Positions 4,312 to 35,185 of a stretch of DNA of 37,624 bases are shown piece by piece (within the stretch, counting starts at the first letter, position 1; each line of letters opens with the position of its first letter). Source of the stretch: Planctomycetaceae bacterium (GTDB taxonomy: Bacteria; Planctomycetota; Planctomycetia; Planctomycetales; Planctomycetaceae); the NCBI GenBank assembly GCA_023260695.1, contig JALQUR010000370.1, positions 1-37,624 on the forward strand, read 5' to 3'. Made by a program: the position numbers and the translations under genes. The notes below the pieces were generated by a model. It was not told the DNA's origin. It searched no databases and saw only the letters and a program-made list of their open reading frames with translations.

Positions 4312-6807
4312 TTACCTTGGGGGTGGTGCATATCGCAGACGGAAAGAATCTGAGCTGATCAGTGCAACGACGACGGCTCGAAAGCTGCCATTGCTGTTCA
4401 CGTATGCGTTGTCGGCAGCAATCAGCGTGGGACTGTCCGCGAGGGTCTCATTGCGACCGAGGAAGAAGCGAAAGGCGTGGCGGATGATGGACTGCCGCAC
4501 CCGGTCGGACTGAGCCAGGCGATCGATCAGTTCAAATGGATCTTCCACCGGTCCGTCAAGGTCTTCGTCGTTCGTTCCTGACAAGCCGCCGGTGGTGTCG
4601 AGTGCTGCAGTTCTGAAGATGTCGGCTTCATTGCCCTGCCCCGCCTGCACCACGTTGTCCGGGTGTTCCAGCGGCTCTGATGTGCGATAGCGACCAAAGT
4701 CATCAAAGCACTCGAACGGATATCCGAGCGGATTCATGCGCTGATGACATTTCTGGCAGTGGCGATCACTGGTTGCCAGTTCAACGCGACCTCGAAGGGT
4801 CAGTTCTGCGTGATCCGGGATCTTTGCATCGACGGTAATGGGAATTTCCGGCACGGTTCCGGCCAGCAGTTTTTCCCGGATCCAGCGACCGCGGCGGATT
4901 GGGTCTGTCTGAAAATTACCGGAGTGTGCAACCAGCCAGGCAGGGTGTGTGAGGATTCCCTTGCGATTGCTGATCGCAAACGGTTGCTCGGTGGCATAGT
5001 CGAAGAGGGTTTCGTCGCTGTAGCGTGAATCCCGTCCGGGCATCTTTGCCAGACTGTAGATCGGTGAATGCCAATAATGATTCCCATGTGCCCAGGGGAA
5101 CGTGGTGAACGGAGTCACTCCGCGTCCGAAGGTATTCTCAAAGTGAGTCATCAGTCTTGTGAGGCTGTTGTCATGTCGTGCTTTACTTGGCCCTTCGACG
5201 CCGCGGCTGTCAATGTACTGACGCAGCAGTTGCTGGTGGGACTCCGCGACTCCCGCAGGATCTTCTTTCCAGTTTGTATCCCTGAGTGCTTCATAGACGA
5301 TTCGCCAGTCATTCACACGTTCCGTGCCGCGTTGGTTGTCGAGGTCGTGATAAAGGTAGTAGCGATCGGTTGTGAGCAGCCGCCGGAACACGTCGCGATC
5401 TGCTTCAACAATGTCCGCGACGACACGATCAGCTTCATTGATCAGATGGCCCGGGGTCTGGGTACTGCCTCGGTCAGGATTGATGTAGATCCCGCCGCTG
5501 CGTTTTGTGTCCTTAAAGACGCGCATTGCCATGGGATAACCAAAGAACTCACGGAAGAAGCGAATCATCCTCGGATGGGATGTGACGCGGGACTTCATGG
5601 ACTGCCGACCGCCATTGATCCCCGGATCGATGGATCCTTTGTAATAATCATTGTCAGAAAGCAATCGCTGTGCTTCGCGTGCGTAATCCGCAGCAGTGAC
5701 CAGCTTCCCGGTATCTGCGGCTGCAATCAGAGTCGCATCCGGGCGGCGATCTCCAAGAGCGTATGAGATGGCCCAGGCAGCCTCCCGGCCGGAGAGTGGA
5801 CGTCGAGCGTGCTCGTCAGGATCGCCGCTTCCGAACTCCAGACGGTAAAGGAACTCCGATTCCAGAATGACAGCAACCAGCATCTGCTGCAGCCCGGCCC
5901 TGTTTCCGGCAGCAGTTACGGCAGATCGCATCAGCTGCAGATAGCGCTGCTGTTCGTGTGGCTCAGGGGCTCGCGCCAGCACAAGGTTGAACTGTCGCTC
6001 AATGGCAGCAATCAGTTGTGCATCGTCGGGAATGGTCTGTGCCTGCAGAATTACAGTGAATTCAGACGGTGTGGCAGGTGGTGCCCAGCGATCACGCTGG
6101 TCCGGAAATACGCTGGCAGCATCCTCCCCTGCGGCAAGCCGTGCTCGAGCGATCTGTTTTTCTGAGATCCACTGGGCGTTCTTGAGCATTACCAGCAGGT
6201 GTCCCCCGCCCGGTGTGCGGATCGCGTAATCGCGGACTCCGGAGTGATCCGGAAGCAGAACCGGATTGGTGATCCCGTAGAAACCTGACTGCCGAAATCG
6301 CTCTCGCTCGTTTCCTTCGAGTTGAAACAGATCAATGACGCGTTCAGTGAAGATCCACGGGCTGATCAGCCAGCGGCGTGGGCTTGTGGCGGGATGATGA
6401 GATTCATCGGCCGTGAACAACTGTGTGTGGTCCACGTAGTTTCCATATGCCGGGAAGGGAAGCTTTTGATCCAGCTCTGATGACTCGTTTGCACGCAGAT
6501 ACCTGCGGAGCTGAGTGACAAGCAGTGCCAGATTCTCAGCCGGGACCGGCTCTGCTTCATCCGGGGGCATCAGACCGTAGAACAACTGATCCTGAATGCG
6601 ATTGAGCAGAGTGAGTTGCTCGGCTGGCGCCAGCGACTGCAGCTGATCGAATCGAACATCTGCTTTACTGTGGTTTCCTTCATGGCAGTCGCCACAGTGG
6701 TTTCTGAGCATCGTGACGACAGGTGCTGGGATTTCGTCAGCAATGGAATAGCCGGTGGCAGGCAGAGTCAGGAGAGACAGACAGCAATAGCAAAGCGTGC
6801 GAAGCAT
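4312..6807 (-). CDS. DUF1592/DUF1588/DUF1585-type planctomycete dihaem cytochrome (divergent)
   Basis: An exported protein of 831 residues. I start at ATG 6807, which opens a clear signal peptide (MLRTLCYCCLSLLTLPATG); an AAGGA lies 11 bp upstream, whereas the longer TTG start at 6849 adds a poor N-terminus. The first haem site is CGDCH (38-42), followed by the YGLMPP segment whose Met could be the axial ligand. The second is CQKCH (684-688) inside a DUF1588 signature (CHQRMNPLGYPFE..DDFGRYR), and the last ~80 residues are DUF1585-like. The N-terminal third does not show the DUF1587 pattern seen in the other three cytochromes here, so it belongs to another subgroup. It has no DUF1552 or DUF1501 partner adjacent. 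Biochemical role unknown; periplasmic or surface electron transfer coupled to polymer degradation is a guess. Confidence 0.88.
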   Translation of the reverse strand: MLRTLCYCCLSLLTLPATGYSIADEIPAPVVTMLRNHCGDCHEGNHSKADVRFDQLQSLAPAEQLTLLNRIQDQLFYGLMPPDEAEPVPAENLALLVTQLRRYLRANESSELDQKLPFPAYGNYVDHTQLFTADESHHPATSPRRWLISPWIFTERVIDLFQLEGNERERFRQSGFYGITNPVLLPDHSGVRDYAIRTPGGGHLLVMLKNAQWISEKQIARARLAAGEDAASVFPDQRDRWAPPATPSEFTVILQAQTIPDDAQLIAAIERQFNLVLARAPEPHEQQRYLQLMRSAVTAAGNRAGLQQMLVAVILESEFLYRLEFGSGDPDEHARRPLSGREAAWAISYALGDRRPDATLIAAADTGKLVTAADYAREAQRLLSDNDYYKGSIDPGINGGRQSMKSRVTSHPRMIRFFREFFGYPMAMRVFKDTKRSGGIYINPDRGSTQTPGHLINEADRVVADIVEADRDVFRRLLTTDRYYLYHDLDNQRGTERVNDWRIVYEALRDTNWKEDPAGVAESHQQLLRQYIDSRGVEGPSKARHDNSLTRLMTHFENTFGRGVTPFTTFPWAHGNHYWHSPIYSLAKMPGRDSRYSDETLFDYATEQPFAISNRKGILTHPAWLVAHSGNFQTDPIRRGRWIREKLLAGTVPEIPITVDAKIPDHAELTLRGRVELATSDRHCQKCHQRMNPLGYPFECFDDFGRYRTSEPLEHPDNVVQAGQGNEADIFRTAALDTTGGLSGTNDEDLDGPVEDPFELIDRLAQSDRVRQSIIRHAFRFFLGRNETLADSPTLIAADNAYVNSNGSFRAVVVALISSDSFRLRYAPPPR

Positions 6808-6863
6808 CGGCTGCAGGATCCTTTGTTCACGAACGTCGCATCTGGTCAATTCAGGTATGCGGA

Positions 6864-9820: not shown

Positions 9821-11119
9821 ATGCATAACGTAGTGAGTGTTTTGCAGCGAGTGCTTGTTCTGAGCGTTTTTCTGCATGGGGCATTCGGAATGAGTGTCTT
9901 CGCTGACGATGGAATTGTGCTGTCGAGCGGAGTTACGCTCAGCGGCAAAGTGCGGCTGCTGCCGGATCAGAAGATCTCAGTTGATGTGCAGAGCGGCGGT
10001 CGGACGCTGAGCCGGTCGTACCCACTGAGTCGCGTCAGAACTTATACGCTGAATGGGAGGACATTTGACGCCGCGACCGGAAAAGCGATCGAGGGAACAG
10101 GTGGAATTCAGGAGAAGTCAGCAGCAGAGCTGCAGGCGATCATTGATCGGGCGGGCAGTGAGCCACCAGAGTGGCTGGAGGGTCTGCAGCCGCGATTTCC
10201 GGACGGACTTGATTTCTCATGGCCGCAGCCTCCGGGGGGCCCATGGGACAGTTCAAGGAATATTGGCCAGTATGTCTGGGATCGCGTGAATCCCAATCCT
10301 TCACGCTGGCGGGACGGCGTGGCTCTGATGCACGAGGTGATGCGGAAGAACCCGAATCCTGAGATTCAGCAGCGGGCAATGCGTACGCTGGGGGGGATGT
10401 ATCACAACCTGCATCAGGATTACGCCCGTGCGGCGTGGTGGTTTCTGAAATCTGGGCTGGACCCGCGTGGCCGCGAGTTTCCTCAGGCGGTAGTCGGTCT
10501 TGCCGACTGTTATCTGCAGCTTGGAGGAAGGACCGTTGCCCTTGAAATTGTCAGAAATATGCCGGCGCGTCCGTATTCTGCGATCAAGCTGCTGGGTGAT
10601 GCGGGCGAGACTGATGAAGCTGTGCAACTTGGGGAACAGTTCGCAAAGACGGGGCAGGCATCCACCTCATTGCTGTACGCCGGCGACGCCTGCCGCGTAG
10701 CCGGTCGTCTGCAGCAGGCTGAGGGCCTCTACCGTCGAGCCCGGCAGGCGGCTCTTGATGCCGCGGATGCAGACAAGCCACATCGCCAGAGGGATCGTCG
10801 TCGTGCCGAGGCCAGCATCTCTGTTGTGCAGCATCTGCAGCTTTCGCCGGAACAGTTGGCTGACGGGACTTACCGGGCTTCCAGTCCGGGGTATGAGGCG
10901 GACGTCGAAGTGGAGGTGGTCCTGCAGGGGGGATCAATGAAGTCTGTCCGCGTTACGGATCATCGAGAGAAGCAGTTCTACTCATCCATCGCTGAGACGC
11001 CTGCGAGAATTCTGCGGAAGCAGTCAGTGAATGGGATTGATGCGACGACCGGAGCTACGATCACTTCCGAGGCGATTATCAATGCCACTGCGAAGGCCAT
11101 GCTGCAGGGATCGAAGTGA
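9821..11119 (+). CDS. Exported FMN-binding domain protein with TPR-like middle region
   Basis: A 432-residue protein with ATG 9821 preceded by GGAG at 9 bp. Residues 1-28 are a signal peptide (…SVFLHGAFGMSVFADD). Residues ~30-75 form a small beta-rich domain (LSSGVTLSGKVRLL). About 150-330 is helical and TPR-like (ALMHEVM, YARAAWWFLKSGL, AVVGLADCYLQLGG, AGRLQQAEGLYRRA). The C-terminus (~347-430) is an FMN_bind domain (GTYRASSPGY..DVEVEVVLQGG..VRV) ending in DATTGATIT. In RnfG/NqrC/NosR-type domains the last Thr of this motif (Thr413 here) is covalently flavinylated by ApbE. So this is probably an extracytoplasmic flavoprotein relaying electrons. The polyferredoxin gene starts 48 bp downstream, so they are likely one operon. 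No apbE is in the window. Fusion to a TPR region is unusual. Confidence 0.88.
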   Translation: MHNVVSVLQRVLVLSVFLHGAFGMSVFADDGIVLSSGVTLSGKVRLLPDQKISVDVQSGGRTLSRSYPLSRVRTYTLNGRTFDAATGKAIEGTGGIQEKSAAELQAIIDRAGSEPPEWLEGLQPRFPDGLDFSWPQPPGGPWDSSRNIGQYVWDRVNPNPSRWRDGVALMHEVMRKNPNPEIQQRAMRTLGGMYHNLHQDYARAAWWFLKSGLDPRGREFPQAVVGLADCYLQLGGRTVALEIVRNMPARPYSAIKLLGDAGETDEAVQLGEQFAKTGQASTSLLYAGDACRVAGRLQQAEGLYRRARQAALDAADADKPHRQRDRRRAEASISVVQHLQLSPEQLADGTYRASSPGYEADVEVEVVLQGGSMKSVRVTDHREKQFYSSIAETPARILRKQSVNGIDATTGATITSEAIINATAKAMLQGSK

Positions 11120-11167
11120 ACCGCCTGCGATTTCTGCTGTACTGAGTGTGCTGGTCCTGGAGGTGAG

Positions 11168-13300
11168 ATGATGCGACTGGACTGGTTTCTGCCGACGCTG
11201 CGGAGTGATCGCCCGGGGAACCGTCGTCGATATCCGGGGCGTATCAGGGCGTTTGGCATTCGCGTGCTGCCGAGATTTCTTTTTTCCGACCACCACAGAA
11301 TGCGACGCGGACTTGCTCGCCGAGTGCTCGTTCGGATGGGGCCTGTCTGGGCTGCTGCTCCTGTTCGGCGGCTGATTCAGAGCAGCTGTCTGGTCATCTT
11401 TCTGTATCTTTTCTTCTGGGTTTGCTGGCCCTATTCAGCTGAGCCTGTGGCTCCGTCAACTGGATGGAATCCCGCTGAATTCGACTACGAGCGTGCAACG
11501 GTATCACTTTCCGCCGGCATTGATAGTGCATCTGCCACTGAGATGATCGACGGGGCGTCTGCATTGTTTGTGACGGACCAGAGTAATCTGCAAACATACG
11601 GTGTGGCTGAAGATCGATCGCGTCCTGACGACGGTGCTGAGCCGGAGTCTCTGATCAGAGTGGCTGCAACTTCTCCGGGCAGGCTCACACTCGATCTTTC
11701 AGCGTTGCCCGCTGACCAGATTGATGAGCTGTCAGTGTCCACGGGCCCGTGGGATCTCTCGTCAACTGGTCCCGACCACTGGCCCGGACATTACTCGACG
11801 AATCTGCAACAAAAGGAGCAGCTTGACGCAGAGTTCTTTCTGATAATTGATCCACTGGTGAGTCTGTCAACAGCTGTGGCTTCTCGCTCGTGGGTGTGGT
11901 CTCTGGCGGCAGCGGGCGGAATCCTGGCAGTCTGTCTGGTCATTCCAAGGGGGTTCTGCGGTTACATCTGTCCGTTGGGGACCACGATTGATCTGTTCGA
12001 CTGGGCTGTCGGACGTCACGTGCGGCGGTTTCGAGTCGCTGGTGAAGGGTGGTGGGTGCACATCCGTTTTTATCTGCTGCTGGGAGTCATGATTGCTGCC
12101 GGTGGGGGAGTATTGTTGAGTGGATATGTGTCGGCGATCCCGGTGATCACTCGAGGATTGCTGTTTACGCTGGCTCCGCTGCAGAACGGGGCTGCAAACG
12201 GATGGCATCAGATTCCCGGATGGAACAGTGGGCACCTTGTTTCAGTGCTGTTGTTTCCTGGTGTGCTGGGACTGGGACTGCTCAGGCCGCGATTCTGGTG
12301 CAAGTATGTCTGTCCCAGTGGTGCGGTCTTTTCTGTGGCGAACCTGTTTCGGCTCAGTGAGCGAAAAGTCGATTCATCCTGTATTCACTGCAACAAGTGC
12401 GTGGAGATCTGTCCGTTCGACGCCATTAAGCCTGACTTCACAACACGCACATCGGACTGCACGTTGTGTCAGTCCTGTGGCGGGGTCTGCCCGACGCACT
12501 CGATCCACTTCACGGGGCGTCTGGATTTTGTTGAGCTGAAGACGCCGAACGATCCCCCGACACTCGAAACGGCACTGGGACGGCGCGGTTTCTTATCGGC
12601 TGCTGTCGGGACAGGCAGTTCACTGGCAGGCGGAGTGTTTACAGCACTGGCCATCGGTGGCGGAGAAACTGCCGGGACGCAGACCATTCCCGTACGGCCC
12701 CCGGGCAGCGTACCTGAGAGTTCATTTCTGCAGATGTGTATCCGCTGCGGGGAGTGCTTCAAGGCATGTCCCAGCGATGTGTTGCAGCCGATGGGTTTCG
12801 AGCAGGGCCTGAATTCGCTGTGGACGCCGGAGGTTGTTGCGGACTGGGCGGGGTGTGCATCTTCCTGCAACGCCTGTGGTCAGGTCTGTCCGACGGGGGC
12901 CATCAGTGCGCTTCCACTCGAGGAAAAACGCTACGTGAGAATGGGGCTGGCAGTAATCAACTCAGAGACATGTCTGCCGCTGGCGGGAAGAGGAGCGTGT
13001 CAATTATGTGTCGATGAATGTACTGCAGCAGGCTACAACGCTCTGGAATTCATCCAGACGGGCACGCAGGTTGACGAACAGGGCAATCCTGTAGCGGGGA
13101 GTGGATTCCTGGCGCCGTATCTGCTTCCTGATCTGTGTGTCGGTTGTGGCCTTTGTCAGACCCGTTGTTACGGGATCAATGTTGCCGACCGCGGCGTGCT
13201 GAAGCAGTCTTCGATCGTGATTGAGGCTGGTGAGGGACGAGAGGACCGGTTGCTGGCAGGCTCGTGGCGTGAACTGGCGCAACAACGTATGGCCAGATAG
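11168..13300 (+). CDS. NapH-NapG-like fusion: membrane polyferredoxin with six 4Fe-4S motifs
   Basis: A 710-residue membrane iron-sulfur protein; GGAGG lies 4 bp before ATG 11168 and 7 bp before ATG 11171, so the second may be used. Order: basic N-tail, TM ~70-88, an extracytoplasmic stretch ~90-225, then NapH/NosR-like TMs with CGYICP (264-269) and CKYVCP (378-383). Two ferredoxin motifs follow (Cys405/408/411/415 and 431/434/437/441), as in NapH. Next comes a twin-Arg GRRGFL (471-476) plus hydrophobic stretch, then a NapG-like domain (VRPPGS..., RMGLAV). That domain has Cys524/527/530/534, 563/567/570/574, 602/611/614/618 and 657/660/663/667. NapG and NapH are separate proteins in nitrate respiration; here they read as one chain. 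With the FMN protein upstream it probably passes quinol electrons outward. No nap or nos terminal reductase is nearby. Confidence 0.92.
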   Translation: MMRLDWFLPTLRSDRPGNRRRYPGRIRAFGIRVLPRFLFSDHHRMRRGLARRVLVRMGPVWAAAPVRRLIQSSCLVIFLYLFFWVCWPYSAEPVAPSTGWNPAEFDYERATVSLSAGIDSASATEMIDGASALFVTDQSNLQTYGVAEDRSRPDDGAEPESLIRVAATSPGRLTLDLSALPADQIDELSVSTGPWDLSSTGPDHWPGHYSTNLQQKEQLDAEFFLIIDPLVSLSTAVASRSWVWSLAAAGGILAVCLVIPRGFCGYICPLGTTIDLFDWAVGRHVRRFRVAGEGWWVHIRFYLLLGVMIAAGGGVLLSGYVSAIPVITRGLLFTLAPLQNGAANGWHQIPGWNSGHLVSVLLFPGVLGLGLLRPRFWCKYVCPSGAVFSVANLFRLSERKVDSSCIHCNKCVEICPFDAIKPDFTTRTSDCTLCQSCGGVCPTHSIHFTGRLDFVELKTPNDPPTLETALGRRGFLSAAVGTGSSLAGGVFTALAIGGGETAGTQTIPVRPPGSVPESSFLQMCIRCGECFKACPSDVLQPMGFEQGLNSLWTPEVVADWAGCASSCNACGQVCPTGAISALPLEEKRYVRMGLAVINSETCLPLAGRGACQLCVDECTAAGYNALEFIQTGTQVDEQGNPVAGSGFLAPYLLPDLCVGCGLCQTRCYGINVADRGVLKQSSIVIEAGEGREDRLLAGSWRELAQQRMAR

Positions 13301-13951: not shown

Positions 13952-16444
13952 CTATCTGTTGCGAAATGCTGTACTCGACGTAATCGACAGGATCAGATCC
14001 TGCAGTCGGAAATCACCGTGCTCATCAAAATGTCGGCGTAACAGAGATGTGATCGTAGCCTGATCCTGTGGCCCCGGAAGTCGCCCGAGTGCGTATGTCA
14101 GCAGTTGCAGGGTGATGTTCCGGACAAACACATCCTCCCGTGCGGCAAGGGCTGACCGCAGATCGGCGATTCCGGCGAACTCTGTGGAATCCGGGAGCAC
14201 CCCGGCTGTATCGATCGGAATCCTGCGTTGTGCATCGTAGAAGTTTCGTGACCGACCGATGGGATCAAATCCTTCCAGAGCAAATCCCGGCGGATCGATC
14301 AGTCGGTGGCACTGTGCGCAGGCCGCGTTCTCCCGGTGCTGCTCCAGCTGCGTGCGAATCGACGTGGCGCCACGAACATCGGGGTCAATCGCTGGCACAT
14401 TATCCGGTGGCGGTGGTGCCCGGAATCCGAGGATTTTTTCGAGTACCCAGACACCACGTACAACCGGGGAAGTCTCGATGCCATTGGCAGACACGGTCAG
14501 CACGGAGGCATGCCCAAGCAGACCCCGGCGCTTTGTGTCGGGCAGTGTGACGCGATGAAACGTTGCGGCTTCTTCAGGAGGAATCTGATCAGTCAGTTCA
14601 TAAAGTCTGGCCAGATCGCGATTCACGAACGTGTGCTCAGCCCTCAGGATCTGAGTGGCTGGCTCGTTATCCTGAATCAGCTGCTGCAGGAACAGCACTG
14701 TCTCCTGCTTCATGTCATCCTGCAGTCCGAGACTGTAGTACAGCTGAAAGCTGCGAGCATCCGGCGGCATGTTCCCCAGTTCACGCAGGTTCAGCCAGCT
14801 GTCAGCAAAGTCCGCAACAAAGCGTTCACTCGCCGGTGACTGCAGCAGCCTTGTTGTCTGCGCTGCAAGTACCTGTGGTTGCAGGATTTCACCTGTGTCA
14901 GCCAAACGCGCAAGGGCGTCGTCCGGAGGTGCCGAAGTAAGAAAATAAGCAAGCCGCTCGGCCAGTCCGTGCGCGGTCAGCGTGCCGCTCGCTGCTTCCG
15001 ACGGTGGCTTGAAGTAAAGGAACTCGGGAGAGCAGAGAGCGGCTTTGAGTGTATTGCGAGCAGCCGCGAGGTCGTCGGTTCCCTGTCGCCGCTGCTGCTC
15101 ATAAAGCTGCAGCAGTGGAGCAGAATCGGAGCTGTTTACAGGTCGACGCCACGCTCGACGGAGGAACCGCGACAGAAACTGAGGAAACTGATCCGGATCC
15201 AGGTTTACGTCCGCGATCAGCAGCTGTTCGCTCTTTGTGGCGGCTCTCGGAAGTGGTCCGGAGATGTCGATCTCGTAGATCCGGATCTGCGGCAGATACC
15301 CTGTGGCAATGACTGAGTTCCGCATCTCCACGATTCCACGGGAGCCTCGCAATTCCTCAGGGATTGTGTCCTTGTGTTCGCGAAACACACGCGCGTATGC
15401 ATTGCGAACGTCGTGCTGTCCGTTTTCGAAGGTGAAGCGGGGAACAAATCCGCGATCCAGCCAGATGTTGAATTCGTACCACTGCTGCTGATTGTCAGCG
15501 ATCACTGTTTCTGCAAGCAGTGGCTGAACCGGCTGGATATGGACCTGATCCCGGATCCTGGTGTCACCCGGACGGATTCCCAGTCGAAATGGCTCACTGC
15601 AGTCGATCTGTGCCACTCGAGGACTGTAGGGGGTATCGCGATGCAGGGCTTCAGCAAGGATCCGCACCGTGTAGATGCCATCGAAAGGCACACCCTGTGG
15701 CAGTCCGGGAACCGGACCGTAGGCGCCTTCCGGCTTGTCATTCAGAGGGTGGTCGTAGAGCACCATGAAGCGATGATCGAAGGCATTTCGATGAGCGATC
15801 GCCAGTTCCTGCTGCTGAAAGAACTTGTCAGTGAAGTGCCAGGATTCCGACGTGACAGGCTGCGACTGCTGCCACGCCTTCTCTATGCAGATGTCTGCCG
15901 CTTCGAGATACTCCTGCAGCAGAAACCCTGAAGTTGACAGGGAACTGCTGATATTGTCGAAGCCGGCTGAGACCTGATCGTCAGGAAACGTCTGTGTTGG
16001 ATCGACGGCATGGAGTGGCAGACCCAGAAGTGCTGAGACCGTATTGCGATATTCTCTGCGGTTGAGCCGACGCAGGACAGTGGTCGAGGGAAGGTGCTGA
16101 ACTCGTTCGGAGAGTTCCGTCTGCAGACTGCGTGCAGCCTGAATCATCTGCAGAACCACTTCGGAATCAGGCTGCTCAGCATCCTGTGGCGGCATGCGAC
16201 TGAGCACGAGCTGGTCGATGACTTCCTGCAGACTGCGGAGTGAATCCGGGTGCTCCGCGAGCGGGAACAGACCGCTCAGATCACGTTCACCGCCTGGGTC
16301 CTGTCCGGAATGACAGTCGATGCAGTACTGCTTCAGAAACTGACTGAGCGGCTGAGCCGCTGTCTGCTGAGCCAATACGGGTGTCGCAGCGATGAGCACC
16401 AGCAGCAGGCAAGACCAGAAAATGTGAGCAGACGACCGAGTCAT
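13952..16444 (-). CDS. DUF1587/1592/1588/1585-type dihaem cytochrome
   Basis: An 830-residue exported planctomycete cytochrome. ATG 16444 overlaps the stop of the upstream DUF1552 gene as ATGA and has GAGGG 5 bp ahead, so translation is probably coupled. The signal peptide is residues 1-25 (…LIAATPVLAQ). Haem site 1 is CIDCH (41-45), with SRMPP further on as candidate axial-Met segment. A DUF1587-like block follows (LRRLNRREYRNTVSALLG...FPDD..SAGFDN), then DUF1595-like (FLRRAWRRPV), DUF1592-like (AERLAYFLTSAPPD..., FVADFADSWLNLREL) and DUF1588 with haem site 2 CAQCH (709-713) in CHRLIDPPGFALEGFD. DUF1585 closes the protein. The function is unknown in this family; it is presumed extracytoplasmic electron transfer tied to its DUF1552 partner. 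Confidence 0.93.
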   Translation of the reverse strand: MTRSSAHIFWSCLLLVLIAATPVLAQQTAAQPLSQFLKQYCIDCHSGQDPGGERDLSGLFPLAEHPDSLRSLQEVIDQLVLSRMPPQDAEQPDSEVVLQMIQAARSLQTELSERVQHLPSTTVLRRLNRREYRNTVSALLGLPLHAVDPTQTFPDDQVSAGFDNISSSLSTSGFLLQEYLEAADICIEKAWQQSQPVTSESWHFTDKFFQQQELAIAHRNAFDHRFMVLYDHPLNDKPEGAYGPVPGLPQGVPFDGIYTVRILAEALHRDTPYSPRVAQIDCSEPFRLGIRPGDTRIRDQVHIQPVQPLLAETVIADNQQQWYEFNIWLDRGFVPRFTFENGQHDVRNAYARVFREHKDTIPEELRGSRGIVEMRNSVIATGYLPQIRIYEIDISGPLPRAATKSEQLLIADVNLDPDQFPQFLSRFLRRAWRRPVNSSDSAPLLQLYEQQRRQGTDDLAAARNTLKAALCSPEFLYFKPPSEAASGTLTAHGLAERLAYFLTSAPPDDALARLADTGEILQPQVLAAQTTRLLQSPASERFVADFADSWLNLRELGNMPPDARSFQLYYSLGLQDDMKQETVLFLQQLIQDNEPATQILRAEHTFVNRDLARLYELTDQIPPEEAATFHRVTLPDTKRRGLLGHASVLTVSANGIETSPVVRGVWVLEKILGFRAPPPPDNVPAIDPDVRGATSIRTQLEQHRENAACAQCHRLIDPPGFALEGFDPIGRSRNFYDAQRRIPIDTAGVLPDSTEFAGIADLRSALAAREDVFVRNITLQLLTYALGRLPGPQDQATITSLLRRHFDEHGDFRLQDLILSITSSTAFRNR

Positions 16445-24253: not shown

Positions 24254-27200
24254 TTAACGGTTCTCCGCAAGTGAGGTATTGCCCTGACGGTTCAGGAACT
24301 GCGGGCTGGAGACAATGCAGCGGAACAGGGTCTGCACGCGATAGTTGTCCGCCATCAGGTCTCGCTTCATTCTTTCAACCAGGAGCTCATCGGACAACAT
24401 CAGACTGCGTCCCAGAGCATATGAGAGTAACTTTCGGCAGAAATTGTCGACAAATTCCTCCCGGCGATTCTGCATCAGGTACTGATTCAGTCCGGCCAGG
24501 CCGCTGCCAGCGACGTCACCCGGAAACACCACCGAATCGTCAATCGGTCGTCCACCCAGGTCGGCTGTTCGCCGTTCTCCGATCGGTCCGAATGATTCAA
24601 ATGCCAGTCCGATTGCATCAAAACGATCATGGCATCCAGCACAGGCGATGTGATCACGATGTTGCTGCAGAATTATTCGCAGTGAGCGGTCACCGGGAAT
24701 GGATTCATCCTGTGGCAGCTCCGGGACATTTGGAGGCGGTGCTGGAATGCGTTCACCCAGCAGTCTTCTGACAACCCAATACCCACGCTTGACCGGGCTT
24801 GTACGCAGCCCCGGAGAGTTCTTAGTGAGGAACACGGCCATTCCGGAAAGTCCGCCGCGTCCTGCCTGCTGTAGCCCATCAACACGCCCCCACGATCCAT
24901 CAGGCAGCTCGGCTGGAAGTCCATAGTGCGCAGCCAGCTCTGAGTTGACGAATGTGTAATCGCAGTCCAGCAGATCGAGCAGCGATCCATTGCTGCTTAC
25001 CAGGTGCTGGAACAGCAGCAGCGGTTCCTGAAACATCGCTTCACGCAGTTCCGGAGTGAATTGCGAGAAGCGTTCCCGATCGACGCTGTTGTGTTCCTGA
25101 AAGCGACGGATGTCGAGCCAGTTGGCAGCAAATTCAGTGGCAAGACCTGTGATCCGTGGATCGGAGAGCATCGCCTGCATCTGCGTGAAGATCTGCTCCG
25201 AGGAGATTCGCCCCTGCAGGTCCACAGATTCCTGAAGCGCTTTCACTGTCGCTGCATCTGGCTGACTCGCCCAGAGAAAGAAGCTGAGCCTGCTGGCGAG
25301 GTCTTCCGGTGGATAGGCAGCAACCTCCGGCGTCAGGCTGATCAGGTCAGTGCGGTACAGGAAAGCCGGGGACATGAGGATCGCAACGATTGAGTCACGG
25401 ATGGCATCCTCATGGCTCAGCCCCTCACTGGATCGAAGATCACGGTAGAAATCGAGCAGTGAATCAACCTGAGTCTCCGACGCCGAATGCCGCCACGCTC
25501 GCCGGGCAAATTCAGCAAGCGACTGCAGGTGCAGTGCCTCGGCTGCCATTCGAGTTCTCTCAACCGTGCGAATCTGGTCGGAGATGTTGTTGAAGTAATC
25601 GGCGATTGCGGTCAACGCTGTCTGACCACCGCCTTCCTCGCGAGCTTTCTGGAGGTAGACCTCGGCAAGACGATCAATCATTTGTGCCTGAGCTGAATCG
25701 AGGTTTTCCGGTCTGGCAAAATCAAACTGCGGATCACGCATGAATCGGGAGTCTGTGCGTTCAAACCAGAGGAATCCCTGATACTGTCGCAGTGGAGCAA
25801 AGGTGATGACGTCCAGCTCCAGCCAGAGCAGATCAAGTTCCCGCCGCTGCTCATCGTCCAGAACGAGTTCGTAAAGCGGCTTGTCATCACGAAAGTACCC
25901 CATCATGCTGTGGAACCCTGCACTCAGCAGACGTCCTTTTTCCTGTTTTTCCTTCGGCACATCCAGATAATCGCGTCCACGTTCGGAGACGTAGAACTGA
26001 TCCGGGAAGATGCGGCAGAATTCAGCAACGGATTCCTTCAGCCGCTGCTGCCCGTCAGCAGCCGGCGGCAGGATCAGCTCCGGGAACGCCACTTCTGCAT
26101 CCGCCGTCGGTTCTGCGTCAGATTCCGGATCAGCATTGCTGCCGGATTCTGCGTCAGGGGAAGAGCTCGGGGCTTCTTCGCCTGGATCAGGAGTACCGGG
26201 TTCATCCTCAGGTGCAGCAGGCGGGGGCAGCAACGCCGCCTCATCGAACATCATGCGATGCCCGGCATACTGTTGATTCTTCCAGAGCACGAAGCACTGG
26301 GAGCCCTTGTGGACAGTACCTGATTCAAGGTTCGGCCATTGTGGTACAAGCTCGGGCCGGATCTTCTGTACATAAGCCTGCATCTGCTCAGCGGCGACGA
26401 TCCCTGCTTCGACGGACTGTTCCGCGACGGCTGCCTGGAACATCTGCTGCAGCACATGCAACGGGCCAGCAGCGTCCATGCGATGCAATGACTGCCAGAC
26501 AAGCTCAAGGTAACGTGGACTGATTCCTGCTGCCGCTGCCGCAGCTTCTCGCTGTGCTGTGTGCGTCGTGGAACTGCACTCCACACAGCAAAGGAAATAC
26601 TTTCGCAGTTCCGTGGGCTGTTGTTCGTAGAACTCGACGATTCGCCGTACGCAATATTTGTCGCGGTCAGTATCCGTAACCATTGCGTGGGGTGCGAAGC
26701 GAATGTCGGACGTGGACAGCACAGCATGCTCGGAAACCTGCCTGGCAGCCGCGAGGTACTTCGTAAGCAATGCAGGAGACATCGTAAGAGATTCTCCCGT
26801 GTTGTCGAATCCGACCGAGTTGGCCGGGTCAACGGGGAATGTCCGTGCCGGCAGCAGGTCAATCCCGGTGAGATCGCGGACACAGTGATTGTACTCGGCA
26901 TTGCTCAGACGTCGTGCAAGAACTGAGCCCGGCTGGCCGGACTGCCGTTCGGCAACTTCGCGGCGGAGCGAGCGAATTGTCCGCACAAAGTCCTCCGTCT
27001 GTTCGGAGGACGGGCGATCAGCGGATTCAGCCGGCGGCATCTCACCGGCTTCGAGGCGATCGAGTATCAGAGCCCAGTGCTGGTGCTCCTGAGCGATTGA
27101 CCGTTGCTGACTGAACCCTGTCAGGTCCAGCTGAGCAGCGGGGTCGTCCGCGCTGTGACATTCCATGCAGTATTGACCAAGCAGACTTGTGACAGCCTGC

Positions 27201-27340
27201 GGAAGCTGTTCGTCCGCTGCTGGCACTGATCCGGTCAGGACGATACTGACCATACAGGTGAGCGGAGCGAGGACTCGCCGGTTGCCGAGCCAGAGAGACA
27301 AGGGATTCAAAGCGTCAGGCATCTGATTGTCCGTGTTCAT
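24254..27340 (-). CDS. Large DUF1587/1592/1588/1585-type dihaem cytochrome with acidic linker
   Basis: About 1028 residues from ATG 27340, which I prefer because the open frame back to ATG 27508 would overlap the PhoD-like gene by 103 bp; ATG 27322 is also possible. The N-terminal hydrophobic stretch (~22-40, ending SVPAAD) is a signal peptide. Haem site 1 is CMECH (58-62), then GEMPP. A DUF1587-like block follows (LARRLSNAEYNHCVRDLTG...FPVDP). A large insert spans ~210-560 and includes an Asp/Glu/Pro/Ser-rich linker at ~372-418 (DNA 26087-26227). Next are FARRAWRHSASE (DUF1595-like), SRLSFFLWASQPD and FAANWLDIRRF (DUF1592), then DUF1588 with CAGCH (900-904) and DUF1585 at the end. It is the middle gene of a PhoD-cytochrome-DUF1552 set. 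Enzymatic role unknown. Confidence 0.92.
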   Translation of the reverse strand: MNTDNQMPDALNPLSLWLGNRRVLAPLTCMVSIVLTGSVPAADEQLPQAVTSLLGQYCMECHSADDPAAQLDLTGFSQQRSIAQEHQHWALILDRLEAGEMPPAESADRPSSEQTEDFVRTIRSLRREVAERQSGQPGSVLARRLSNAEYNHCVRDLTGIDLLPARTFPVDPANSVGFDNTGESLTMSPALLTKYLAAARQVSEHAVLSTSDIRFAPHAMVTDTDRDKYCVRRIVEFYEQQPTELRKYFLCCVECSSTTHTAQREAAAAAAGISPRYLELVWQSLHRMDAAGPLHVLQQMFQAAVAEQSVEAGIVAAEQMQAYVQKIRPELVPQWPNLESGTVHKGSQCFVLWKNQQYAGHRMMFDEAALLPPPAAPEDEPGTPDPGEEAPSSSPDAESGSNADPESDAEPTADAEVAFPELILPPAADGQQRLKESVAEFCRIFPDQFYVSERGRDYLDVPKEKQEKGRLLSAGFHSMMGYFRDDKPLYELVLDDEQRRELDLLWLELDVITFAPLRQYQGFLWFERTDSRFMRDPQFDFARPENLDSAQAQMIDRLAEVYLQKAREEGGGQTALTAIADYFNNISDQIRTVERTRMAAEALHLQSLAEFARRAWRHSASETQVDSLLDFYRDLRSSEGLSHEDAIRDSIVAILMSPAFLYRTDLISLTPEVAAYPPEDLASRLSFFLWASQPDAATVKALQESVDLQGRISSEQIFTQMQAMLSDPRITGLATEFAANWLDIRRFQEHNSVDRERFSQFTPELREAMFQEPLLLFQHLVSSNGSLLDLLDCDYTFVNSELAAHYGLPAELPDGSWGRVDGLQQAGRGGLSGMAVFLTKNSPGLRTSPVKRGYWVVRRLLGERIPAPPPNVPELPQDESIPGDRSLRIILQQHRDHIACAGCHDRFDAIGLAFESFGPIGERRTADLGGRPIDDSVVFPGDVAGSGLAGLNQYLMQNRREEFVDNFCRKLLSYALGRSLMLSDELLVERMKRDLMADNYRVQTLFRCIVSSPQFLNRQGNTSLAENR

Positions 27341-27405
27341 TGCTGGCAGGCATGCCGCTGGAGGGTATCCACGATGTGTCCGTGGCGGAATCGAAGGGTC
27401 TTCCG

Positions 27406-28458
27406 TCAGTTGGACTGAAGCTGAGACAGTCTGACCTGCTGCGAGAGTGGAACGGACCCGTCGCTGGCGATGATCTGCAACCTGATCACGGGATCGTCGG
27501 CATCCCATGATACATCAATCTGGCCGAAATTCTCCTCATGATAGGTTTTCGGGATCGCTCGATGAGTGTTTGCAGTGGGAGTTCCACGAGGGTGTTTCTG
27601 GTTCAGACTGCTCGATGTCAGCTCGTACACCGGATAGTCGGAGAGTTCCGATTCAATGGACAGTTCGGCCCAGTGGCGATCACCGCTCAGCAGTATTACA
27701 CCAGTTGCTGAAGTCTGGCGAAGCAGGTCAAACAGACGTGCTCGTTCAGCGGGCATGTTTGCCCAGGTCTCCTGTCCGGCGGCATCGGCGATCATCTGGA
27801 TTCCGCAGCCGATGAATCGGAGCTGCGCCGGCTGACGGAGCTGTTCCTCCAGCCACTTCCATTGGGTGTCACCCAGCATCGTTTCTCCGGGTGTGGTCTG
27901 GGGGTAGTACGGGCCTCCCGTTCGGCGTGGTCCGGTCTTGAGTGGGGTGCGGTGGTAGCGGGCGTCGAGCAGAATTACCTGAATACGTCGGCCTGCGGGG
28001 CCGAACATTCCAGCAGAATAGACACCCTGCTGCTGCCTTTGCGGGGAAGTCAGGGGAACGCCGAAGAAATCCAGAAACAACTTTTGTGAAGTTTCGCGCA
28101 TTGTATAGTCGCTGCCTCCGTCGTTGACACCAAAATCGTGATCGTCCCAGACCGCAAGCATTGGTGCGGCATCCCGAAGACGCTGGAAATCATGGCTGGA
28201 ACCCAGAGTGTGGTATTTTTGAAGCATGATCTCCGGATCGTTGGTATCGGCGTAAATGTTATCACCCAACAGAATGGTGAGTTGCGGCTGAGTGTCCGCC
28301 ATGCTCGCAAGCAACGGAATCGGACGGTCCTGTTGAATACAGGAGCCAAACACGATTCGAAAGCTGTCGCCTGCGTGAATCCTGGCTGGATTCATGGACA
28401 GAGGTGCAGCGATGAGGCTAATTATCAGAAGCGACGAGAGCTTCCAGCAACAACTCAT
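27406..28458 (-). CDS. PhoD-like metallophosphatase (alkaline phosphatase D family), secreted
   Basis: A 350-residue exported phosphoesterase. ATG 28458 is preferred (AGGGA 9 bp upstream) over the TTG ten codons earlier. Signal peptide 1-30 (LLIISLIAAPLSM…HAGD). Calcineurin-like metallophosphatase motifs are in order: FGSC (37-40), LLGDNIYAD (63-71), WDDHDFGVND (104-113), a SQKLFLDFF helix, LLDARYHR (163-170), MLGDTQWKWLEEQL (194-207) and LSGDRHWAEL (257-266). Their Asp, Asn and His residues build the bimetal site, as in PhoD phosphodiesterase/phosphatases. So it likely hydrolyses phosphomonoesters or diesters outside the cytoplasm. The cytochrome gene starts 65 bp downstream on the same strand with no strong terminator between. 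Co-transcription is plausible but a functional link is not obvious. Confidence 0.94.
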   Translation of the reverse strand: MSCCWKLSSLLIISLIAAPLSMNPARIHAGDSFRIVFGSCIQQDRPIPLLASMADTQPQLTILLGDNIYADTNDPEIMLQKYHTLGSSHDFQRLRDAAPMLAVWDDHDFGVNDGGSDYTMRETSQKLFLDFFGVPLTSPQRQQQGVYSAGMFGPAGRRIQVILLDARYHRTPLKTGPRRTGGPYYPQTTPGETMLGDTQWKWLEEQLRQPAQLRFIGCGIQMIADAAGQETWANMPAERARLFDLLRQTSATGVILLSGDRHWAELSIESELSDYPVYELTSSSLNQKHPRGTPTANTHRAIPKTYHEENFGQIDVSWDADDPVIRLQIIASDGSVPLSQQVRLSQLQSN

Positions 28459-32077: not shown

Positions 32078-35000
32078 ATGTATCCGACAGAGTGTCCTCA
32101 GTCTCCGCATTCGCTTCCGGGATTGATCGTCTCCGTGGGCATCGTCCTGCTTCTGTTCTGTGTTGCTCGGGGGCCGGCAGTGGATGTGGCGGCAGAGGTC
32201 TATGCCAGGGCAGACGCGGACTTCTGCGAACTTATTGACCGACGTCTGCGTCGATCTTCATTGATGCGTCTGGCATTATTCTCTCCTGCCACTGCAAGTC
32301 TGGATGGGGTTCAGCTTGACGAATGGTGTCGGGGACAGAGGTCCTTTCGTTTTCCCGGGGACAGCGATGAGTCTGCAATGTTTGTTCAGGGGCCGACGCC
32401 GAGTGTGGCAGGGGTACGAGTGGACGCATTTCCGCTCGAAGCCGCACATGTGGCGGACCTGAAGAGCTTTACGGCTGAGTGCTGGTTTCGTTGGCACGGT
32501 AAGGGAAGTCGTCCAGGTCCTAACGCAGCTGACATCGCTTCGATTATGTCCTTTGGTGATGCGATCAATCATGGCTGGGGGCTGTCACTGAATCTCGTAA
32601 CGGGGCATGTGACATTCAGTATTGGCAGAGACAAGCCACAGGGAGCGGCATCGATAACAAGCGTTTCCCGCATTCCACCGCATGTGTGGGTCAACGTTGC
32701 CGTTGTCAGGGATGCAGATAGCGTCAGATGCTATGTGAATGGCCTGCTGTCGGCCGTGGGTAAAGGCGTAGGCGTCTCCGGAACAGCACCGCCATGGGCA
32801 AAGTTAAGGCTGGGGTATGTCGGAAACGGTCTGGGGTCGGCTGTCTGTGACTTTGCGGGAGCAGCGCTGTACGACCAGCCATTGACAGACAGGGATGTGT
32901 TCAGGCTGAATCACACCAAAGTATCAGTGCAGATGATGAGTTCGTTGCTGAAGGCGAGATCGCTGCTCGTAGCGGGGCAGCCATCGGAGGCACTCGTCGT
33001 GCTGTGGAATTGCGAAGAAGCGACGTCGCAGTCCTGCGGCCTGACAGAGGTGGAATCATATCTTGAGCTGGAACAGATTGAGGACGCAGCACGCTCGGCA
33101 GCAGCTGTGATCAGTTCAGGAGACGCCGCCGCTCATTCCAGTACTCACAGCCCAACAGTTACCACACTGTCGGCGACAGAATTTACGAAAGCGGCGGTGC
33201 GATTTCTTCTGAGAGCCGTGGAGAACGGAGTCACGTTCAGAAGCAGCAGGGAGCATCGACTGACCGGTCAGGTGAATGCTGTGCGCACGGAGTTATCAGG
33301 TGCTGCTGTGGAATCGCTGCGGGATGCAAATGCTCAGTACGCAGCGGAGCAACTTCAGATTTGCAGTGAACAACTCTCGGAGATATTCACCAGCACAATG
33401 CAGTCGCGTCTGCAGCGTGTTTGCGGTGCCTGCCATCACGCTGACGGCTGGGTCACGGATGCGCGAAGGATTTTTGCTGTGCAGCAGGATGTTGATGCTG
33501 AAACAGCGATACTGCGTGCGGATCTGATTGAAGTGCTTGCGTCACGGACAATGCCGCCTCGTGGCAGCGATCCACTCAGCGATTCAGATCGAACTTCCTT
33601 TCTGCGGCTTCTTCGTGATCTTCCGGAACGCCAGTCGTGTTCGCGTCAGGAGACATCTCAAAACAGACTGCGGCAGCGAAGGAGGCTTACAAGGACTGAA
33701 TTCCGTAACAGTCTTTTTGAGCTGGTCGGTGTCCGGCCCGGAGACGCACTTCTGCCGCCCTCGGATGGGGGAGGCGGCGAAGGATTTGATACTGCTGCGG
33801 GAACATTGACGATGTCTCTTTCCACAGCAGAACAGATGCACAATTGCATTGCATCCGTTGTACGCACGGGTGTTCGAGAAGGCGGGAGTTCTGTACTGCA
33901 GCAGATTCTGAATGAATTCGATGCAGGTGATCCTGACATTTCTGACTCCCTGCTGGATTTCGCCGAGCGGGCATGGTGCAGAAAGCTTACGGCAGACGAC
34001 CGGGAATTAATCGGCAGCCTTACGGCTGAACTGCGCGTGGCGGATGCGAATGCCGCCGAGCAGGCAGAAGGACTTGTCGCATTCATACTGATGTCCGGTG
34101 ATTTTTTGTTTCCCTGGATTCGGTCCGATGGCGAAGGCCTCGACAGATCCGCTCGGGCCTGGATTCTTGCTCGACGACTGGCCTTGTTTCTCTGGTCATC
34201 GCATCCGGACGCGACGCTCCTGCAGCGTGCATCTGATGGCAGCCTGCTAAGTCCGAAAATACTCGAGTCGGAAGTGCAGCGGATGCTCGCGGATCCTCGG
34301 GCTGCATCGCTGGGATATAATTTTGGCGAACAATGGCTCGGGATCCGCGGATTTACCTCGAATGTTGCTCCAGAGAACTTTCATCCGTCGTTTACATTGC
34401 CAGTCCGTGAAGCGTTGATGACTCAGGCCGGAAATTTTATTGCCTCGCTGCTTACAACAGATCGCCCACTCGGAGATCTTCTGCGGTCGCGGGTTCACTG
34501 GATGAATGACGACCTCGTAGATTTTTACGGCTTCGATCAGCCCGGGACCGGATGGCGGCAAGTGTCATTGCCGGACGAATATCCGGGCGGGGTGGTAGGA
34601 CTGGGAGCAGTCCTTGCGTCGACCTCTTATCCTGCTCGCACCAGTCCGGTTCTTCGGGGACGCTGGATTCTTGATCACTTGCTCGGAGTGCGTGTGCAGC
34701 CTCCTCCACCCGACGTTCCTCCACTCACCGAGACGGACGAATCTGCTGGCAGTGCAGACATGAAGACGCTGATGGAACAGCATCGCCGGAGTGTTGCGTG
34801 TCGCGGTTGCCATGCAGTGATGGATCCTGTTGGTCTGACTCTCGAAGGATTCGATGCCGTTGGCAGGCGCCGCCGTGGGAATGATCTTCGGGCGACACTG
34901 CAGCCACGTGGTACATTGCCTGATGGAACAGAACTTGTGGACGCTGCGGGGCTTGAAGGCTGGTTGCAGTCTGAGTCGAGAGCGGTGTATCGGCAGTTTG

Positions 35001-35185
35001 CACGCAAGCTGCTGGGATATGCAACGGGTCGACGCCTGACGCTGGAGGAGATCTGCGAGGTTGATCGGATTCTTGATGCGTGCGACGCGAGTTCCCTGAG
35101 TGGTCGCATGCTGGTACAGAAACTTGTGCTCAGTCGGACTTTCCTCGGCTGGTCACCCGAAACTGATGAGAGTGGATTGGAATGA
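32078..35185 (+). CDS. LamG (concanavalin-like) domain fused to DUF1587/1592/1588/1585-type dihaem cytochrome
   Basis: A 1035-residue protein from ATG 32078; no ribosome-binding site is evident. One N-terminal hydrophobic segment (14-31) acts as signal or anchor. Residues ~117-280 form a LamG/concanavalin-type beta-sandwich (LKSFTAECWFRWHG, HGWGLSLNLVTGHVTFSIG, PHVWVNVAVVRDADSVRCYVNGLLS, LRLGYVGNG, AALYDQPLTDRDV), a fold that often binds carbohydrate. A helical linker leads to haem site 1 CGACH (449-453) and ASRTMPP. Then DUF1587-like (RRRLTRTEFRNSLFELVG), DUF1595-like (FAERAWCRKLTADD), DUF1592-like (ARRLALFLWSSHPD, FGEQWLGIRGF), DUF1588 with CRGCH (908-912) and DUF1585. It overlaps the DUF1552 gene by ATGA. 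I infer a cell-surface redox protein recruited to glycan. Confidence 0.91.
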   Translation: MYPTECPQSPHSLPGLIVSVGIVLLLFCVARGPAVDVAAEVYARADADFCELIDRRLRRSSLMRLALFSPATASLDGVQLDEWCRGQRSFRFPGDSDESAMFVQGPTPSVAGVRVDAFPLEAAHVADLKSFTAECWFRWHGKGSRPGPNAADIASIMSFGDAINHGWGLSLNLVTGHVTFSIGRDKPQGAASITSVSRIPPHVWVNVAVVRDADSVRCYVNGLLSAVGKGVGVSGTAPPWAKLRLGYVGNGLGSAVCDFAGAALYDQPLTDRDVFRLNHTKVSVQMMSSLLKARSLLVAGQPSEALVVLWNCEEATSQSCGLTEVESYLELEQIEDAARSAAAVISSGDAAAHSSTHSPTVTTLSATEFTKAAVRFLLRAVENGVTFRSSREHRLTGQVNAVRTELSGAAVESLRDANAQYAAEQLQICSEQLSEIFTSTMQSRLQRVCGACHHADGWVTDARRIFAVQQDVDAETAILRADLIEVLASRTMPPRGSDPLSDSDRTSFLRLLRDLPERQSCSRQETSQNRLRQRRRLTRTEFRNSLFELVGVRPGDALLPPSDGGGGEGFDTAAGTLTMSLSTAEQMHNCIASVVRTGVREGGSSVLQQILNEFDAGDPDISDSLLDFAERAWCRKLTADDRELIGSLTAELRVADANAAEQAEGLVAFILMSGDFLFPWIRSDGEGLDRSARAWILARRLALFLWSSHPDATLLQRASDGSLLSPKILESEVQRMLADPRAASLGYNFGEQWLGIRGFTSNVAPENFHPSFTLPVREALMTQAGNFIASLLTTDRPLGDLLRSRVHWMNDDLVDFYGFDQPGTGWRQVSLPDEYPGGVVGLGAVLASTSYPARTSPVLRGRWILDHLLGVRVQPPPPDVPPLTETDESAGSADMKTLMEQHRRSVACRGCHAVMDPVGLTLEGFDAVGRRRRGNDLRATLQPRGTLPDGTELVDAAGLEGWLQSESRAVYRQFARKLLGYATGRRLTLEEICEVDRILDACDASSLSGRMLVQKLVLSRTFLGWSPETDESGLE

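Follow-up and report, generated by a model that had tools for sequence, protein, structure and literature searches.

The window, i.e., the whole stretch of 37,624 nt analyzed here, carries two genes on the forward strand, separated by an intergenic gap of 48 bp: gene A (positions 9821–11119, 432 aa) and gene B (11168–13300, 710 aa). A is an exported TPR/FMN_bind protein according to its reading frame, its Pfam FMN_bind match, weak TPR matches, and an AlphaFold model with a mean pLDDT of 91. Its N terminus (residues 1–28; 9821–9904) resembles a signal peptide, with a hydrophobic stretch at residues 4–22 and no lipobox Cys, and is followed by a small beta domain defined by DSSP of the model (residues 31–83; 9911–10069), a TPR-like scaffold delineated by modeled helices and matches to TPR proteins (residues 101–336; 10121–10828), and the FMN_bind domain (residues 349–429; 10865–11107). 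Pfam PF04205 matched the latter with 41.5 bits (cut-off 22) over residues 357–427, and the modeled domain superposes on domain 1 of CbFMN4 (8p2b) with Z 13.6 and 1.4 Å over 81 residues, a fold also seen in crystal structures of individual domains of multi-flavinylated proteins.

The FMN_bind domain contains the sequence DATTGAT (residues 407–413; 11039–11059), an instance of the ApbE motif D-x-x-[S/T]-G-A-[S/T] (PMC12052999), the last residue of which, Thr413 (11057–11059), is the predicted FMN attachment site. Thr413, Ala412, Thr415, Tyr358, and Gln385 were invariant in 62 sequences, and Asp407 was nearly invariant among homologs. With this motif, its predicted export, and apbE in the genome, A has the attributes of a likely ApbE substrate.

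Gene B is preceded by a ribosome-binding-like GAGGTG (11160–11165, forward strand) and encodes a NapH-NapG fusion polyferredoxin, as judged from partial NCBIfam matches to NapH models (residues ~225–450) and NapG models (residues 470–668). An Arg-rich, predicted cytosolic N terminus leads into TM1 (residues 69–87 by hydropathy and loop charges; 11372–11428), an acidic region, three hydrophobic helices, the twin-arginine motif GRRGFL (residues 471–476; 12578–12595), and a weakly hydrophobic helix. Loop charges fit an N-in topology with residues 88–240 extracytosolic, and the region rich in acidic residues after TM1 should accordingly lie outside the cytoplasm. Within it, the model and VIA-align delineate a small, predicted extracytoplasmic barrel domain (residues 94–204; 11447–11779), which is poorly conserved in sequence and, by length comparison, missing from a short form of B. 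Its fold matches were middling and unspecific (at best Z 8.9, over 81 residues), and a hidden FMN_bind domain in the extracytoplasmic part was not found by Pfam.

The NapH-like membrane core (residues 241–450; 11888–12517; TIGR02163 match at 225–449) contains two C-x3-CP motifs and two predicted cytosolic 4Fe-4S motifs. The NapG-like, predicted periplasmic domain (residues 520–670; 12725–13177; NF007012 match at 470–668) adds four more, one of them of the form C-x8-C-x2-C-x3-C. All 28 cluster-type Cys of the six four-Cys motifs and the two C-x3-CP motifs were invariant in 81 sequences. R472 and R473 of the twin-arginine motif were invariant in 76 sequences, and the pattern was present in 133 of 140 B-like entries, a set that contains duplicates. 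Three B-like proteins in which the pattern search did not detect the standard form (L144, L095, L099) still have an A-like gene upstream. The model of B was of moderate quality (pLDDT 74.5, with the Fe-S segment 406–444 under 50), and no solved structure related over the full length was among the hits listed by a fold search with it. According to Tooke et al. (PMC5449189), membrane insertion of NapH-NapG fusions requires Sec and Tat jointly, and the NapG part of B is therefore, by analogy, expected in the periplasm alongside A.

The earlier note on this DNA had proposed an exported FMN_bind protein with a flavinylation motif ending in Thr413, a TPR-like region fused to it, and, 48 bp downstream, a membrane polyferredoxin with six 4Fe-4S motifs. 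These features are borne out by the domain match, the structural superposition, the modeled helices, and the Cys motifs, to which the two C-x3-CP motifs are added.

Conservation of the gene pair and its neighborhood

A scan of genome contigs yielded 181 relatives of B, of which 80 were kept; apart from a few doubtful bins, their titles name Planctomycetota or Verrucomicrobiota. Of the 71 homologous loci with enough flank, 68 have A upstream of B, usually at a spacing between 3 bases of overlap and 170 bp. A second draw, of whole genomes and sharing species with the first, contained the pair in most loci as well, in the arrangements apbE-A-B, A-B-apbE, and apbE-A-B-A-B. The last of these is a tandem array in one planctomycete (L087), whose A motifs read DNITAAT and DTFSSAT. 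In a few loci a third gene is placed between A and B, such as the GH62-type glycosidase gene in L015, L024, and L044. Since pairing and motifs are conserved in two phyla, the arrangement is not a chance observation, and the earlier note's own possible refutation, that the genes might not be neighbors in relatives, did not materialize. The module was found in 14 of 294 genomes of the phylum, 44 of 398 of the class, and 3 of 13 of the genus; given this patchiness, it does not belong to core respiration. Stieleria and Neorhodopirellula are among its cultured carriers.

The FMN transferase gene apbE immediately precedes A in about 20 homologous loci. The genome of the window, from an assembly that is 90% complete, contains two apbE genes, both away from the module, and one copy of B; a search for FMN_bind proteins found A and no other. 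Most simply, A is an ApbE substrate there, although ApbE can also modify proteins that lack an FMN_bind domain (PMC8238504). The second possible refutation, that genomes with the module might lack apbE, was likewise not borne out, with apbE often in the same operon in relatives. As apbE is also common in relatives without B, its presence alone is weak evidence and operon linkage is stronger. One module-linked apbE (L065:5838-6848) encodes a protein starting with a twin-arginine signal, MSLSRRRFLCLA, suggesting export of this ApbE by Tat.

Clustering of the neighbors in the 80 loci revealed no conserved terminal enzyme, and apbE was the sole conserved third gene. Genes for nitrilase, EAL-FHA, GH62, sulfatase, and DUF1501 proteins recur in close relatives only or at low counts. 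Rnf, Nap, or Nos catalytic genes are not adjacent to A and B, as had been stated before. The best NapA score in the 90% complete genome of the window was 99 (cut-offs 904–931), and its molybdopterin enzymes stay below the NapA family threshold, one match belonging to complex I. Because there is no constant neighbor beyond apbE, the module appears to stand alone; the earlier idea of a stand-alone FMN/polyferredoxin module of the envelope is thus upheld by the conserved pair, its otherwise variable surroundings, and ApbE in the genome.

Relation to described flavin and polyferredoxin systems

Flavinylated NapH-like systems were described as a class in 2021 by Meheust et al., with a separate FMN gene in 539 clusters; Planctomycetes are absent from the main text of that study (PMC8238504). 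Like A-B, they pair a membrane Fe-S protein of the NapH-like PF12801 type with an FMN_bind protein, and apbE is often encoded alongside. With a Fer4_5 (PF12801) match of 48.7 bits in B, the FMN_bind gene immediately upstream, and apbE linked in relatives, the pair would fall into this class by its sequence. It differs in the NapG domain fused to B, in the TPR scaffold of A, and in the lack of an attached reductase or oxidase gene.

B itself resembles the dual Sec-Tat NapH-NapG fusions described in 2017 by Tooke et al. (PMC5449189), which its NapH core, four-cluster NapG domain, and internal RR motif would make it a probable member of. Q1NSB0 of MLMS-1 and B agree in their five predicted TM segments and in the twin-arginine motif ahead of TM5, with NapH clusters predicted on the cytosolic side and four NapG clusters outside. 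Seven clusters are predicted for Q1NSB0, compared with six canonical cluster motifs in B, and most B proteins carry the extra barrel between TM1 and TM2; the comparison concerns the polyferredoxin alone, the pairing with an FMN protein being noted for B only.

NosR and PceC likewise combine a periplasmic FMN_bind domain with a NapH-type membrane Fe-S core, but within one polypeptide in NosR, whereas here the FMN domain has a protein of its own, the membrane core is extended by a NapG domain, and no NosZ or PceA is encoded nearby. The NosR model scored 27.9 bits (threshold 1000), and nosZ is missing from the window. Like RnfG and NqrC, A has an extramembrane FMN_bind domain that bears an ApbE motif, yet the RnfG score was 21.8 bits (cut-off 102), and PF03116 (NQR2/RnfD/RnfE family) found no match, and hence no RnfD/NqrB, in the 90% complete genome. 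Scores also remained far from NapGH proper (NapG 96.5 bits vs 269, NapH 57 vs 234, no match at NapA level). Thus, A-B is a variant of the flavinylated NapH-like systems, marked by the NapH-NapG fusion and a flavin domain borne on a TPR protein. The epithet "uncharacterised" in the earlier note does not extend to the class or to NapH-NapG fusions, both of which had been described.

The motif glycine and linked apbE

While the flavinylation Thr is constant among A homologs, the motif Gly is replaced in many of them. After removal of near-identical copies, a linked apbE accompanied 20 of 21 loci whose motif has Asn, Arg, Asp, Lys, or His in the Gly position, as against 6 of 17 for Ser or Ala and 3 of 46 where Gly is present. 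This contrast has a naive P of 6e-13, a value inflated by relatedness. The tree implies about 7 changes of residue class; a test on independent pairs had only 3 well supported contrasts, the informative ones of which mostly agree, and was not significant. A Pagel-type likelihood test gave an LR of 24.2, while the largest value among 60 null simulations was 8.3; it relied on a single quick tree, and its residue grouping ("not G, S or A") was picked after the data had been seen. With the simpler split into Gly and non-Gly, the LR was 21.6. An Asn-type A is the sole FMN_bind protein detected in four genomes of one genus (G514, G665, G457, G624), together with three or four ApbE hits.

One tentative explanation, to which we give somewhat less than even odds, is that ApbE and its target co-evolved, such that motifs devoid of Gly (DTTSNAT, DATSRAT, DTTSHAT) are recognized by a dedicated apbE product of the same operon, forming matched pairs beside other ApbEs in one genome. 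We regard such pairs as a lead; the independent events are few. According to mutational work cited in PMC12052999, a Gly-to-Ala exchange in the motif cuts flavinylation to about half only, which makes a relaxed motif plausible even without a dedicated enzyme.

Proposed electron path and significance

We consider it reasonably probable (roughly 60%) that A and B constitute a stand-alone transmembrane module linking the quinone pool, via the NapH core, the NapG clusters, and a covalent FMN, to a periplasmic partner. Four helices of B would be inserted by Sec and its NapG domain exported by Tat. By analogy with the NapGH family, electrons may pass between the NapH core, the quinone pool, and the clusters on the cytosolic side, from where they would reach the four periplasmic NapG clusters. 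ApbE is predicted from motif, domain, and apbE presence to attach FMN to Thr413 in the periplasm. A could then dock on the periplasmic face of B, its FMN shuttling electrons between B and a soluble partner that the TPR region would hold or select. Most likely, electrons run from quinol through FMN, as they do in NosR, and end on a reductase or reductant carrier in the periplasm. The earlier note had left quinol and ferredoxin as alternative donors; a quinol link appears likelier from sequence, and ferredoxin less so because B is of the NapH/NapG type and no NQR2/RnfD family protein was found in the genome.

Electrons might also flow the opposite way, a periplasmic dehydrogenase or carrier reducing the FMN of A and B delivering to the quinone pool, comparable to the ExaA-linked NapH-like systems and perhaps MauM/MauN. 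Flavinylated NapH-like clusters do occur with ethanol oxidase (PMC8238504), and MauM/MauN are among the matched families, but no dehydrogenase is among the conserved neighbors, and we consider this direction rather unlikely. It is very unlikely that the TPR protein A has a structural or assembly role, with an FMN domain that has ceased to be flavinylated in many lineages and other periplasmic partners serving B. The loss of the motif glycine in many homologs would suit such a role; however, the five residues invariant in 62 sequences, Thr413 among them, argue against it, as does the linkage of apbE above all where the glycine is gone.

The earlier note had suggested that the module might feed the exported haem proteins around it, here of the PSCyt/DUF1592 and PVC types. 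The window encodes a CxxCH protein and four DUF1592/PSCyt-type proteins (4312–6849, 13952–16444, 24254–27508, 32078–35185), which form a local, planctomycete haem-associated cluster, given four in 37.6 kb vs 27 hits in the 5.36-Mb genome. With DUF1592 that frequent genome-wide, support for the proposal comes from position only, and the flanks of homologous modules showed no enrichment of DUF1592-type genes, with 5 seen vs 4.3 expected by a rough estimate from the density of one genome. Weakened by this absence of conserved proximity, the proposal is in our view highly improbable.

Planctomycetes and Verrucomicrobia possess large unexplained inventories of exported redox proteins. Untied to one particular reductase, the apbE/FMN/NapHG unit looks like a general periplasmic electron feed, and it offers a defined three-gene system for reconstitution. 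Should the matching of ApbE to a relaxed motif be real, it would widen the accepted flavinylation motif and may provide orthogonal flavin-tagging pairs.
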